From Lutispora saccharofermentans (GTDB taxonomy: Bacteria; Bacillota; Clostridia; Lutisporales; Lutisporaceae): DNA of 64,000 nt. Positions within the stretch are counted from its first letter, which is position 1. Every line of letters begins with the position of its first letter. Below, one piece after another: positions 6,288 through 37,946 of this stretch. The notes below the pieces were generated by a model. The model searched no databases, was not told the origin of the DNA, and was given only the letters and a program-made list of their open reading frames with translations. Where the stretch lies: contig NZ_JAJEKE010000021.1 of NCBI RefSeq assembly GCF_024363565.1, forward strand, positions 1-64,000, read 5' to 3'. The translations under genes were made by a program, and so were the position numbers.

Positions 6288-6509
6288 AAATAGGTAAAAC
6301 TGGTGACAGGGAAAATGATAAATACTTAGTTGAGAGAGCCTGCGTCTGGTGCAAGCAGGTCTGAGATTTTATCTTATCCACCCTGGAGGGATTGCGAGGA
6401 GCAAAACGGGGGCAGCCGTTACACTGCATAGAGAGGATCACTAGATCAATTTGGGTGGTAACGCGGAAGCAAGTCTTTCGTCCCTTTATGGGATGAAGGG
6501 CTTTTTTTA
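6288..6509 (+). promoter_or_regulatory. Serine T-box riboswitch (first complete module)
   Basis: A tRNA-sensing leader with a stem I region (AGAGAG near 6335 and a purine-rich distal loop), a specifier loop reading TTA-TCC-ACC, the T-box sequence aatttgggtggtaacgcgg at 6448-6466, and a terminator (aagtctttcgtccc pairing with gggatgaagggctt, then seven T, ending near 6508). The specifier UCC followed by A means it should sense uncharged tRNA-Ser, which fits the downstream serine biosynthesis genes. The same positions read UCC-A in the serS leader and CCC-A in the proS leader, which supports the assignment. Confidence 0.85.
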
Positions 6510-20658: not shown

Positions 20659-20689
20659 AAAAAAAACTATATAGTAAAATGCATTGATG

Positions 20690-20902
20690 GGAAAAAGTAG
20701 ATGAAACTGCTATAAAGAGAGTCGGCGGATGGTGAAAGCCGGTGTGCAAGACATTGAATTCCATCCCGGAGCAGCCTGTGATGAGCAGGAGCGGTGAAGC
20801 CGTTATATCTTTGAGAGAGCAGCATATGCTGGTGCTGTTAACTAGGGTGGCAACGCGGATTACCTTTCGTCCCTTTTATGGGGACGGAAGGTTTATTTTT
20901 TT
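20690..20902 (+). promoter_or_regulatory. Serine T-box riboswitch of serS
   Basis: Stem I includes AGAGAG near 20717, the specifier loop reads GAAT-TCC-ATC (Ser codon UCC followed by A), the T-box is aactagggtggcaacgcgg (20840-20858), and the terminator pairs acctttcgtccc with gggacggaaggt and ends in a T-run. The sequence upstream to the proS stop contains only the repeat and the promoter. Confidence 0.88.
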
Positions 20903-20928: not shown

Positions 20929-22200
20929 ATGCTTGACATTAAAGAAATAAGAGCTAATGCAGAAGAAGTAATAAGAAAGCTGAAAAGAAGAGGCGGAGAA
21001 TACAGGGTCGGGAAGATACTTGAATTGGATGAAAGAAGAAGGGCGTTCTTGGCTGCCGTTGAAGATTTGAAGGCTCAAAGGAATAAAGTATCCGAAGAAA
21101 TAGCCAAGATCAAGAAGTCAAGAGGAAATGCGGATGGGCTGATTGCTGAGATGAAGGCAGTTTCCGATAAAATAAAGGAAGATGATGACAAGGTAAGGGA
21201 GATAGAGGATGAAATCAATCAAGAGCTCCTGACCATCCCCAATACTCCCAATGACAGCATTCCTGACGGCAAATCCGATGCGGACAACAAGGAAATAAGG
21301 AGATGGGGAGAACCTACTAAATTCCCCTATGAACCCAAGGCTCATTGGGATATCGGAGAGGACTTGGGCATATTGGATTTCGCCACCGCAGGAAAGGTCA
21401 CAGGTGCCAGGTTCACATTCTACAGAGGCTTAGGCGCCAGGCTTGAAAGATCATTGATAAACTTCATGCTGGATACTCATACGGCAAATGGATATACCGA
21501 GATACTGCCTCCCTATATGGCCAACAGCAGGAGCATGCAGGGAACAGGCCAGCTTCCTAAATTTGAGGAAGATATGTTTAAAGTAAACAATACGGACTAT
21601 TATCTCATACCTACCGCAGAGGTTCCTGTGACCAATATACACAGAGAAGAAATATTGGAAGGCGTGCAATTTCCTATAAAATATACTGCCTACAGCGCTT
21701 GCTTCAGAGCAGAAGCCGGCTCTGCAGGAAGAGATACCAGAGGGCTCATAAGGCAGCATCAGTTTAACAAGGTAGAGCTTGTGAAATTCGCTCATCCGGA
21801 TAATTCCTACGAAGAGCTTGAGACACTCACGAATGATGCAGAAAGGATTCTGCAGCTTTTGGGCTTGCCCTATAGAGTAGTATGCCTGAGTGCAGGGGAT
21901 ATAGGATTTTCATCTGCCAAGACCTATGATTTGGAAGTGTGGATGCCCAGCTATAACAGGTATGTAGAAATATCAAGCTGCAGCAACTTTGAAGATTTCC
22001 AGGCAAGAAGGGCTGATATAAAGTTTAAGGAAAACCCGAAGGCCAAGGCCAGGTTTGTTCACACCCTGAATGGCTCAGGAGTGGCTATAGGAAGAACAGT
22101 AGCCGCCATATTGGAAAACTTCCAGCAGGAGGACGGCAGCGTATTGGTGCCCGAGGTCCTCAGATCTTATATGGGCGGTGTAGACAGAATAAAGAAGTAG
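20929..22200 (+). CDS. serS: Seryl-tRNA synthetase
   Basis: The class II synthetase has 423 residues and charges tRNA-Ser. The N-terminal long coiled-coil arm that grips the tRNA-Ser variable arm spans about residues 25-100. Motif 2 appears as [21 protein letters not shown], here read as separate FRAEAGSAG and RQHQFNKVE blocks, and motif 3 as [20 protein letters not shown] 20929 follows AAGGAGGTAATTTT. Regulation is by the serine T-box. It serves the two tRNA-Ser genes seen near 28.6-29.0 kb. A terminator follows immediately. Confidence 0.97.
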
Positions 22201-28575: not shown

Positions 28576-28604
28576 TTGACACTTATGATTTTACCTGATA
28601 TAAT
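28576..28604 (+). promoter_or_regulatory. Consensus promoter of the tRNA-Ser genes
   Basis: TTGACA at 28576-28581 and TATAAT at 28599-28604, spacer exactly 17 bases: a perfect sigmaA consensus about 20 bases before the tRNA 5' end. Confidence 0.9.
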
Positions 28605-28622: not shown

Positions 28623-28712
28623 GGAGAGATGTCCGAGCGGTTGATGGAGCTGGTCTTGAAAACCAGAGATGTTTCACGACATCCGTGGGTTCGAATCCCA
28701 CTCTCTCCTCCA
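28623..28712 (+). tRNA. tRNA-Ser (anticodon TGA)
   Basis: It folds as a class II tRNA with acceptor ggagaga/tctctcc, anticodon arm ctggt-cttgaaa-accag (TGA at 34-36), a long variable arm and T-arm gtggg-ttcgaat-cccac. CCA is encoded. The discriminator base is T, whereas bacterial tRNA-Ser usually has G73. Confidence 0.95.
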
Positions 28713-28769
28713 TAAGAGAATCATAACTTAGTTCTTTGAATAAGAGTATGTATAAGAGGAAAAGTAGAT

Positions 28770-28879
28770 GGGAATTCGAACGGGAGGAACAAGAAGATGC
28801 GCCCTTTGGAAGCATTTTCCCTCCCAGGCGTGATAGTGAGCGAAAGCGAACGGAGCGAATCCCACTCTCTCCTCCATAA
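28770..28879 (+). repeat. tRNA-linked structured repeat, copy 1, plus duplicated tRNA 3' end
   Basis: A 94-base unit (28770-28863) starts gggaattcgaacgggagg and ends gcgaatccc. Internal pairing is extensive: GGGAGG with CCTCCC and the gatgc/gcatt arms. It runs directly into a copy of the upstream tRNA's 3' end: 28856-28879 equals 28692-28715 (T-arm to CCATAA). The remaining bases 28713-28769 contain nothing recognisable. Confidence 0.8.
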
Positions 28880-28898
28880 AGAACTATAGCTTAGACCT

Positions 28899-28990
28899 GG
28901 AGAAGTACTCAAGTAGGTCGAAGAGGCGCCCCTGCTAAGGGCGTAGGTCGGGAAACTGGCGCGAGGGTTCGAATCCCTCCTTCTCCGCCA
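28899..28990 (+). tRNA. tRNA-Ser (anticodon GCT)
   Basis: Acceptor ggagaag/cttctcc, anticodon arm cgccc-ctgctaa-gggcg (GCT at 34-36), long variable arm, T-arm gaggg-ttcgaat-ccctc, discriminator G and encoded CCA. It lies in the same transcription unit as the TGA tRNA. Confidence 0.96.
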
Positions 28991-29000
28991 TCTGAAAACG

Positions 29001-29024
29001 AATCACTCACAAGAGTGATTTTTT
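29001..29024 (+). terminator. Terminator after tRNA-Ser(GCT)
   Basis: aatcactca/caagagtgatt hairpin followed by T6. A second copy is at 29162-29186. Confidence 0.85.
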
Positions 29025-29045
29025 AGTATAAACGAATGAGCAACG

Positions 29046-29186
29046 GGGATTCGAACGGGAGGAACAAGAAAATGCGCCCTTTGGAAGCATTTTCCCTCCC
29101 AGGCGTGAAAGCGAGCCAAAGCGAGCGGAGCGAATCCCTCCTTCTCCGCCATCTGAAAACGAATCACTCATAAGAGTGATTTTTTT
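29046..29186 (+). repeat. tRNA-linked structured repeat, copy 2, plus duplicated tRNA 3' end and terminator
   Basis: The unit at 29046-29138 (gggattcgaacgggagg to cgaatccc) is nearly identical to 28770-28863. Its ends GGGATTCG and CGAATCCC are a perfect inverted repeat; inside, GGGAGG/CCTCCC and AAAATGC/GCATTTT form a second stem. It is followed by 29131-29185, which repeats 28970-29024 (tRNA-Ser(GCT) T-arm, CCA and terminator) with one mismatch. Confidence 0.82.
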
Positions 29187-36611: not shown

Positions 36612-37946
36612 TTGGCGGCATTAAAAGCAATACACTATATAAACCAGTTCTATGCAGGCATTGGCGGAGAGACCATGGCAGATATAGGCCTTCAGGTTTT
36701 TACTGGTACAAAAGGGCCCGGTATGGGACTGGAAAAGCTGTGGAAGGGAGAAATGGAGGTTATAAAGACCATCGCCTGTGGCGATAACTTCATTAATAAG
36801 GACGAAAACTTCGAGAGCGTGGCACCAGAGATTGCAAAAATAATAAAGCAGGAAAAACCAGATGTATTCATAGCTGGACCGGCATTTAATGCTGGACGTT
36901 ATGGAGTAGCATGTGCTAAGATGGCAGATTACGTAAGAAGGGAACTTGGGGTTCCAAGCGTCACAGGCATGTGGCATGAAAATCCTGCTATAAGCATGTA
37001 TGTAAAGGATAATTATATAATATCCACAACTGAGACAGCTACAGGAATGACTAAGTCACTGCCTGCAATGGCAAGTCTTGCTTTAAAACTGGCTAAGAAG
37101 GAAGAAATAGGTCCGGCGCGTTTGGAAGGTTATATTAGGACCGGGCACAGATATAACCAGTACAATAAAAAAACAGGTGCTGAAAGGGTTGTTGATATAC
37201 TGCTTAAAAAGCTGAACAATGAACCTTATGTGACAGAGGTGCCTCTGAGAGGCTTTGAGGTTGTTCCACCAGCACCTAAGGTAGTAAAACTGAAGAATGC
37301 GACTATTGCCCTGCTTACTACAGGCGGACTTGTTCCAATGGGGAATCCTGATAAAATAAGACAGGCATTTGCTACAAGCTATGGAAGGTATGACATGGGA
37401 GGGAAGGACTCTCTTGACCAGGGAGTATACGAATCCATACATGGAGGCTATGACACTACCTATGCTACCGCCGATCCCCACAGACTGGTTCCCTTGGATG
37501 CAATGAGGGCATTAGAGAAGGAAGGAATAATCGGAGGAACATATAGATACTTCTTTACTACCTGCGGTGTTGGGACAAACATTGAAAGCAGTAAGGAGAT
37601 GGGAAGGAGAATAGCTGACGAGTTGTCAAAGGCTGGAGTCGGCGCAGCTTTAATGACTACCACGTGAGGAACCTGCACACGTTGCGGTGCAACGATTACA
37701 AAGGAATTAGACAGGGTTGGAATACCTACTGCTCATATAACTGGCTTTACATCTATAGCACAAAATGTTGGAGCTAACAGAATAATATTCGGCGGTAACT
37801 TTACATCACCTGCAGGAAATCCAAGCCTTCCTCTTGAACGTGAAAAGGCATACAGAAGAAAGATAGTTGAAAAGGCTCTGGCTGTGATTTCACAGGATGT
37901 TCATGAACCGACCATATTCACTGTTGATGAGAGCAAGGAGGGATAA
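36612..37946 (+). CDS. Selenocysteine-containing Grd-type protein B subunit (GrdB/GrdF/GrdH family)
   Basis: The full product is 444 residues, with an in-frame UGA at 37665-37667 read as selenocysteine (codon 352). The frame continues to TAA at 37944. Sec sits in the family motif U-G-T-C-T-R-C, and the following C-terminal 92 residues (GANRIIFGGNFTSPAGNPSLPLEREKAYR, in blocks) match the conserved tail of glycine, sarcosine and betaine reductase B proteins. The N terminus reads HYINQFYAGIGGE, as in GrdB. A hairpin follows the UGA. The start is TTG 36612 behind AGAGGAGAG. Protein B activates the amine substrate and passes a carboxymethyl-selenoether to protein A. Conventional callers will truncate it at 37667. 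The substrate is unassigned; an unprocessed partner subunit favours a sarcosine/betaine-like type. Confidence 0.93.
37665..37694 (+). promoter_or_regulatory. Sec UGA codon with candidate bacterial SECIS hairpin
   Basis: UGA at 37665-37667 is followed, 12 bases on, by the stem CGTTGC (37680-37685) and GCAACG (37689-37694) with a GGU loop. Distance, apical stem and G/U-containing loop fit a bacterial SECIS element recognised by SelB. Confidence 0.75.

Follow-up and report, generated by a model that had tools for sequence, protein, structure and literature searches.

Two tRNA-Ser genes lie on the plus strand of the window (the whole 64-kb stretch of DNA that was analysed). Each is followed by a leader, by one copy of a structured unit (named U) and by a second copy of its own 3′ end. 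The leader and U together are called the element. The features, in window positions, are:

28576–28604, plus strand: promoter of the tRNA-Ser operon, consensus sigma-70 (TTGACA-17-TATAAT)
28623–28712, plus strand: tRNA-Ser(TGA), target of element 1 (ARAGORN; Rfam)
28692–28712, plus strand: left duplication copy of element 1, the last 21 nt of tRNA-Ser(TGA), from T-loop C56 to CCA
28713–28770, plus strand: spacer/leader of element 1, from the tRNA end to U
28771–28863, plus strand: U copy 1, a three-way junction (P1–P4) with P1 5′ arm GGAATTCG and 3′ arm CGAATCCC
28856–28876, plus strand: right copy of the tRNA-Ser(TGA) 3′ end, 21 nt (24 nt with the shared TAA)
28899–28990, plus strand: tRNA-Ser(GCT), target of element 2 (ARAGORN; Rfam)
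28970–28990, plus strand: left duplication copy of element 2, the last 21 nt of tRNA-Ser(GCT)
28991–29045, plus strand: terminator (stem 29000–29021) and leader of element 2, AGTATAAACGAATGAGCAACG
29046–29138, plus strand: U copy 2, with perfect P1 GGGATTCG/CGAATCCC
29131–29151, plus strand: right copy of the tRNA-Ser(GCT) 3′ end, 21 nt
29152–29185, plus strand: continuation of this duplication through a second terminator (stem 29161–29182), giving a 55-nt copy in all

The initial annotation had described near-identical units of about 93 nt behind the two genes, each followed by a copy of that tRNA's own 3′ end, and both observations were borne out. The two copies of U are 94% identical over 93 nt, and the 108-nt repeat pair is 91% identical. 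The end of tRNA-Ser(TGA) is duplicated over 24 nt (CGAATCCCACTCTCTCCTCCATAA) and that of tRNA-Ser(GCT) over 55 nt at 98% identity, terminator included. The ends of the unit match the T-arm and its complement, as had also been proposed, and in copy 1 the right copy of the tRNA end doubles as the 3′ strand of P1. The usual duplicated tRNA end is 21–25 nt, which the 55-nt copy exceeds. Because tandem arrays ending in partial units are common among relatives, this longer copy is probably the leftover of a truncated array or of a further unit. The first ~22 nt of the element 1 leader are similar to the ancestral tRNA–tRNA spacer; after them comes a −10-like GTATAAG that is common to other copies. 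Judged by the position of the sigma-70 promoter, copy 1 would be co-transcribed with both tRNA-Ser genes.

Other RNA features were seen elsewhere in the window. T-box leaders are located at 6294–6488 and 20675–20877, the second directly 5′ of an open reading frame (20929–22200) that looks like a seryl-tRNA synthetase. A SECIS_4 element (37668–37705) lies directly 3′ of the open reading frame at 36612–37667, which may encode a selenoprotein subunit of the glycine/sarcosine/betaine reductase type; this arrangement suggests readthrough at selenocysteine.

U is a three-way junction made of P1 (its two ends), P2/P3 and P4, the last of which is variable and at times long. The RNA fold of U had a z value of −3.2, better than all 200 shuffles. 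A covariance analysis had been suggested as a check for RNA structure. In an alignment of 63 distinct U sequences, 92% of cells pair, and two-sided compensatory changes were found in 205 cells, compared with 48 after shuffling and at most 26 when the partners were slid. This covariation proves that a strand of U folds. Tandem G·A pairs swap with Watson–Crick pairs in P2 and P4. On the tRNA-sense (plus) strand, 66 G–U pairs were counted against 21 A–C pairs (the outermost P1 pair excluded for A–C), in an alignment of related sequences that had been fitted to a plus-strand model. The excess of G–U over A–C is moderate evidence that the tRNA-sense strand would be the one that folds, and an integron-like bottom-strand site was rejected on this bias. 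No family of Rfam 15 matched U, either at the gathering threshold or at E values up to 5.

A third copy in the same genome lies behind tRNA-Leu(TAG), duplicates the Leu 3′ end (CAAGTCCCTTATCCCGCACCA) and has the arms GGACTTG/CAAGTCC. Pattern and covariance-model searches gave more than 100 distinct copies in Clostridia and their relatives. The pattern scan of species genomes returned at least 114 stretches, and those confirmed by the covariance model were nearly all from Clostridia; pattern matches in Vibrio, Streptomyces, Mesorhizobium and other non-clostridial genomes had no covariance-model match and were taken as chance. In other Lutispora genomes and in a neighbouring genus, units follow Ser(tga, gct, gga, cga), Leu(tag), Arg(tcg, cct), Ala(cgc) and Tyr(gta). 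Among the relatives is L. thermophila DSM 19022 (L114). Further carriers are small-genome gut Clostridia (family f6) and the single-contig genomes G631, G607, G785, G552 and G803. Some carrier genomes are presumably of the Dehalobacter, Syntrophobotulus and Desulfitobacterium types. Presence is patchy: 11 of 391 genomes of the class and 11 of 398 of the phylum had units, and none were found in the congeners G003 and G005. Most listed carriers had one to seven matches, and one (G766) had eight. The elements are about 105–170 bp long, non-coding and multi-copy, and no cargo genes were recognised within arrays at the loci read.

In a termite-gut Clostridiales (L064, 1400–2200), a triple tandem array follows a tRNA gene; CCA is missing from the tRNA and the inner copies (CCGTTA) but present in the last one (CCGCCA), and the terminators between units differ by compensatory changes. 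At L051 (5340–6000), variant units have ~100 nt of extra sequence that separates the tRNA block from the 3′ strand of P1.

Linkage to tRNA genes was analysed with 106 distinct units having at least 150 nt of upstream sequence, and a same-strand tRNA gene within 600 nt was counted as linked. Such a gene was found upstream of 89 of the 106 units, and 24 isoacceptors were represented. At 66 of these 89 loci, the ten bases after the T-arm were identical to the acceptor end of the unit's own tRNA in all ten positions, whereas 6208 comparisons with tRNAs of other amino-acid specificity gave no full match. Most units thus follow a tRNA, and most of these copy its 3′ end exactly, which was the check that the initial annotation had suggested. 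The 17 copies without an intact upstream tRNA gene were in arrays, beside tRNA fragments or at decayed loci. Matches unlinked to tRNA genes and a constant downstream sequence, either of which would speak against a mobile element, were both looked at, and that reading stands. On a tree of 80 units, which came from a short alignment and was poorly resolved, the amino-acid identity of the neighbouring tRNA changed at least 33 times (shuffled mean 43.5, minimum 39). Units therefore appear to switch tRNA often, with some fidelity to the locus.

Several loci contained other sequences at tRNA genes. Behind tRNA-Ser(tga) on the minus strand of L168 (G018:C57, same family), there are at least two tandem units of ~165 bp with unrelated sequence. 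Each ends with GCCGGCCATCCGGC followed by TTCGAATCCCTCTCTCTCCTCCA, a copy of the 3′ end of the same tRNA; this is a different type of element with the same target. At L033 and L036 (family f6), broken copies of the tRNA 5′ half, interrupted in the D-arm region by short hairpin-like inserts, lie upstream of tRNA-Leu(taa), as if other small elements also strike tRNAs in these small genomes. In a Lutispora-related MAG (UBA7994; L118, 4300–4700), an island has apparently integrated in the anticodon region of a tRNA-Arg gene directly 5′ of an intact unit, and part of the tRNA-Arg 3′ half is re-created at its edge. At L166 (G007), an isolated CGGATTCGAACCCGG, the reverse T-arm motif expected at a unit start, is located after the tRNA-Ser(gct) terminator and is possibly the scar of a lost element.

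Filled and empty sites were compared between congeners. At tRNA-Leu(gag), G631 is filled and G607 is empty. A 23-bp duplication (CAAGTCCCGCCTTCCGCACCAAT) flanks the insert in G631, and the right-hand flank (ATCAGTAGTTTAC, whose AT is part of the duplication) is identical to the empty site of G607. At tRNA-Ser(tga), G631 has a 25-bp duplication (CGAATCCCACCCCCTCCGCCATGCA), and the site is empty in G607 and G678. It is also empty in the more distant G785, G765 and G803, so insertion is the simpler direction; in principle, empty sites could also arise by exact deletion between the 21–25-bp repeats. The target-site duplication starts at T-loop C56/R57 and ends 0–4 bp beyond the tRNA, and in the two G631 insertions it passes CCA by 2 and 4 bp. 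Older loci are consistent with identity having been worn back to the functional tRNA end, with drift outside it.

The sequence between the tRNA end and U was compared among units behind different tRNAs. In G004, the units behind Ser(gga) and Arg(tcg) have a terminator and leader that agree at more than 90% of positions, beginning with the base that directly follows CCA. The tRNA-end-to-U stretch is homologous between Ser(gga) and Leu(aag) in G311 (z = 13.5), and it is likewise common to different tRNAs in BRZ_CQ__bin29 (z = 11.3). Because loci at different tRNAs have homologous leaders and units but always a local duplicated block, the leader and U move jointly, and it is the target that supplies the block. 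A circle/ICE model, which was favoured at first as identity stops exactly at the tRNA end, was dropped because of this homology. U as the right end of a large island was also rejected, as no unit was found at an island edge with a distant tRNA, save for tRNA fragments beside other insertions.

The same data bear on the att-site layout to which the initial annotation had likened the repeats. A phage- or ICE-type tyrosine integrase could use the T-loop as attB, as exemplified by phage Ms6 (PMC1762012), and act on a circle of leader, U and tRNA 3′ end, in which case the element would be a minimal satellite or an integron-like cassette. T-loop attB sites typically show tandem arrays and a block of identity that reaches from the T-loop to the end of the tRNA, and a folded site with core-matching arms recalls attC. 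However, the block belongs to each target and is not carried by the element, since near-identical leaders and units occur with different local blocks. In addition, G141, with six matches to covariance model R2, has a single tyrosine recombinase (347 aa). The same kind is present in all f6 genomes searched, and by its motifs it looks Xer-like. No match to U was found in the phages, plasmids and viral contigs searched. The integrase explanation was thus considered highly improbable, and an att-site duplication made by an integrase was not supported.

Other enzymes were sought by their presence in carrier genomes, and this search found neither a mobilising enzyme nor an autonomous relative. Reverse transcriptase was absent from G064, G141, G281, G295 and G311, which are complete or near-complete carriers of one family, and from G011. 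Cas1 was absent from six of the nine carriers searched (G141, G064, G281, G295, G004 and G011). Y1 transposase was absent from 7 of the 12 genomes searched, and all seven are carriers (G141, G064, G281, G311, G631, G785 and G011). Retro-copying, Cas1 and Y1 transposase were rejected as movers because the enzymes are missing in several carriers, and the retro-copied tRNA-like RNA suggested earlier was not supported. An enzyme missing from a genome now could still have been supplied in the past by an element that was lost or was there only for a time.

Movement might also need no enzyme of its own. Illegitimate exchange between tRNA genes, by gene conversion or template switching at short stretches common to them (the CCA end and GTTCRANNCCC), would carry the leader and U along and leave the local block on both sides. 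Both breakpoints are located exactly at sequences that every tRNA has, stems are known to be perfected by template switching within hairpins (PMC8794818), and no recombinase accounts for all carriers. On the other hand, equally precise results in many genera, at 24 isoacceptors in all, and repeated intact insertions look like an efficient process, and the fresh duplications extend past CCA into positions where donor and target have no common tRNA sequence. We regard this explanation as improbable.

The two strands of P1 differ in origin: the duplicated tRNA block supplies the 3′ strand, and an arm belonging to the element supplies the 5′ strand. The arm is complementary to the T-loop of the preceding tRNA, a match that covers eight T-loop sequences at 69 loci. 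At 20 of 119 loci (1.35 expected), chiefly of the Peptococcaceae type, it runs 4–9 bp (mostly 7) further into the T-stem/acceptor. Direct reading of L241 showed an arm complementary to the entire tRNA-Gly end, CCA included. Arms are 8–11 nt long where they match the T-loop; in some lineages they also match the acceptor and reach 15 nt, and up to 24 nt. An acceptor-stem tRNA mimic was considered for the Peptococcaceae-type arms and rejected, as most members end at 8 bp. The inverted arms vary with the target tRNA. Conservation is confined to the U side; the left end of the element is unconserved between groups, and no terminal inverted repeat is conserved at the element ends.

A functional small RNA was considered as well. 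U and the tRNA 3′ end would be transcribed as a tRNA-tailed RNA serving tRNA processing, charging or regulation, and duplication near tRNA genes would be only the route of gene birth. In its favour, the folded strand is the plus strand, terminators after units are kept by compensatory changes (L064), copy 1 in the window sits within a tRNA operon, and right copies are nearly perfect. Against it, the units are patchy, with none found in the congeners G003 and G005, are variable or decayed, and have been newly inserted at unrelated tRNAs. Furthermore, most members have no intact acceptor stem: in Lutispora and the majority of the others, pairing of the arm is limited to 8 nt. A small RNA was judged an unlikely explanation. 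That the right copy is nearly perfect even where U has diverged also counts against a mobile element, and it could mean that the copy has a function.

Taking as observed the structure, the tRNA linkage, the target-derived duplication, the empty sites, the joint movement of leader and U and the target-matched arm, we consider it probable that these are non-coding, non-autonomous mobile elements that insert at tRNA 3′ ends and duplicate ~21–25 bp of the target. The minimal mobile element that the initial annotation had listed among its options is in line with the empty sites, the 23- and 25-bp duplications, the patchy distribution and the 24 isoacceptors. The family of protein-free elements, roughly 110–170 bases long and found across Clostridia at many different tRNAs, is apparently undescribed; no published description was found in the literature open to search.

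For such a mobile element, the following mechanism is proposed. The element consists of a leader, usually with its own terminator, plus the folded U. A trans-acting enzyme may recognise the folded strand, which has the same sense as the tRNA, and make a staggered cut of about 21–25 bp in the T-arm/acceptor DNA, followed by insertion. The left copy would keep the tRNA whole, and the terminator of the element would often replace that of the tRNA, which should make insertion almost harmless. The right copy would become the 3′ strand of the basal helix P1. The arm may match because it guides the element to the target, or because, once insertion has taken place, the right copy serves as the template on which the arm is rewritten by hairpin template switching, a process known to perfect stems (PMC8794818). 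A bolder possibility is nucleic-acid-guided homing, in which a folded single strand (RNA or DNA) would find a tRNA gene with its 11–24-nt arm. The arm would be re-written from each target, so that a protein-free element would re-program its own target. We put this forward tentatively and with more doubt than belief.

Mobile elements of this kind point to a novel mobilising enzyme or an unusual DNA-repair route, and sequenced congeners offer clean filled/empty pairs. The family would also explain tRNA 3′-end fragments and tandem repeats behind clostridial tRNAs. Phages and genomic islands classically integrate at tRNA genes; they encode integrases and bring the tRNA end along. In contrast, a protein-free element of roughly 110–170 bp was found here at 24 isoacceptors in many clostridial genera.

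Among known systems, tRNA-integrating phages and ICEs with T-loop attB sites and integron attC sites are similar in the tRNA 3′-end duplication from the T-loop, the tandem arrays and the folded site. They differ in that here the block is not element-borne, an integrase is missing and the insert is about 110–170 bp; an own attP block together with an integrase, which defines tRNA-targeting integrative elements, was not found. Rfam sRNA families also have conserved structure, but U itself has no match among them. REP/REPIN sequences moved by RAYT, a Y1 transposase, are likewise small folded single-strand elements in intergenic DNA, whereas the elements described here are tRNA-specific and duplicate their target, and seven carriers lack a Y1 transposase.

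Casposons, which carry genes for Cas1 and PolB and are bounded by TIRs of their own, target the extreme 3′ end of tRNA genes and duplicate 14–15 bp there, and the repeats of Cas1-type integration at CRISPR are 25–50 bp (PMC6977970). A target at the tRNA 3′ end and a target duplication are seen here as well; the duplication measures 21–25 bp, its length not being exactly constant, and that of casposons 14–15 bp (PMC6977970). However, the tRNA-end elements encode nothing, and cas1 was found neither in the element nor in six of the nine carriers searched.

MITEs and other small non-autonomous mobile sequences (reviewed in PMC10969869 and PMC2229807) are likewise short, non-coding and folded, have copies genome-wide, duplicate their target and are presumed to be moved in trans. 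Of the features by which MITEs are recognised, the terminal inverted repeats common with a parent transposon were not found. The "inverted repeat" here is the target tRNA sequence against its matched arm rather than one derived from a transposon, no parent transposon was found, and the sites are tRNA 3′ ends. The target-site duplications (23 and 25 bp), the lack of coding capacity, a length under a few hundred bp and the multiple copies are all present, and the elements appear to work like a MITE or the end of a site-specific transposon.
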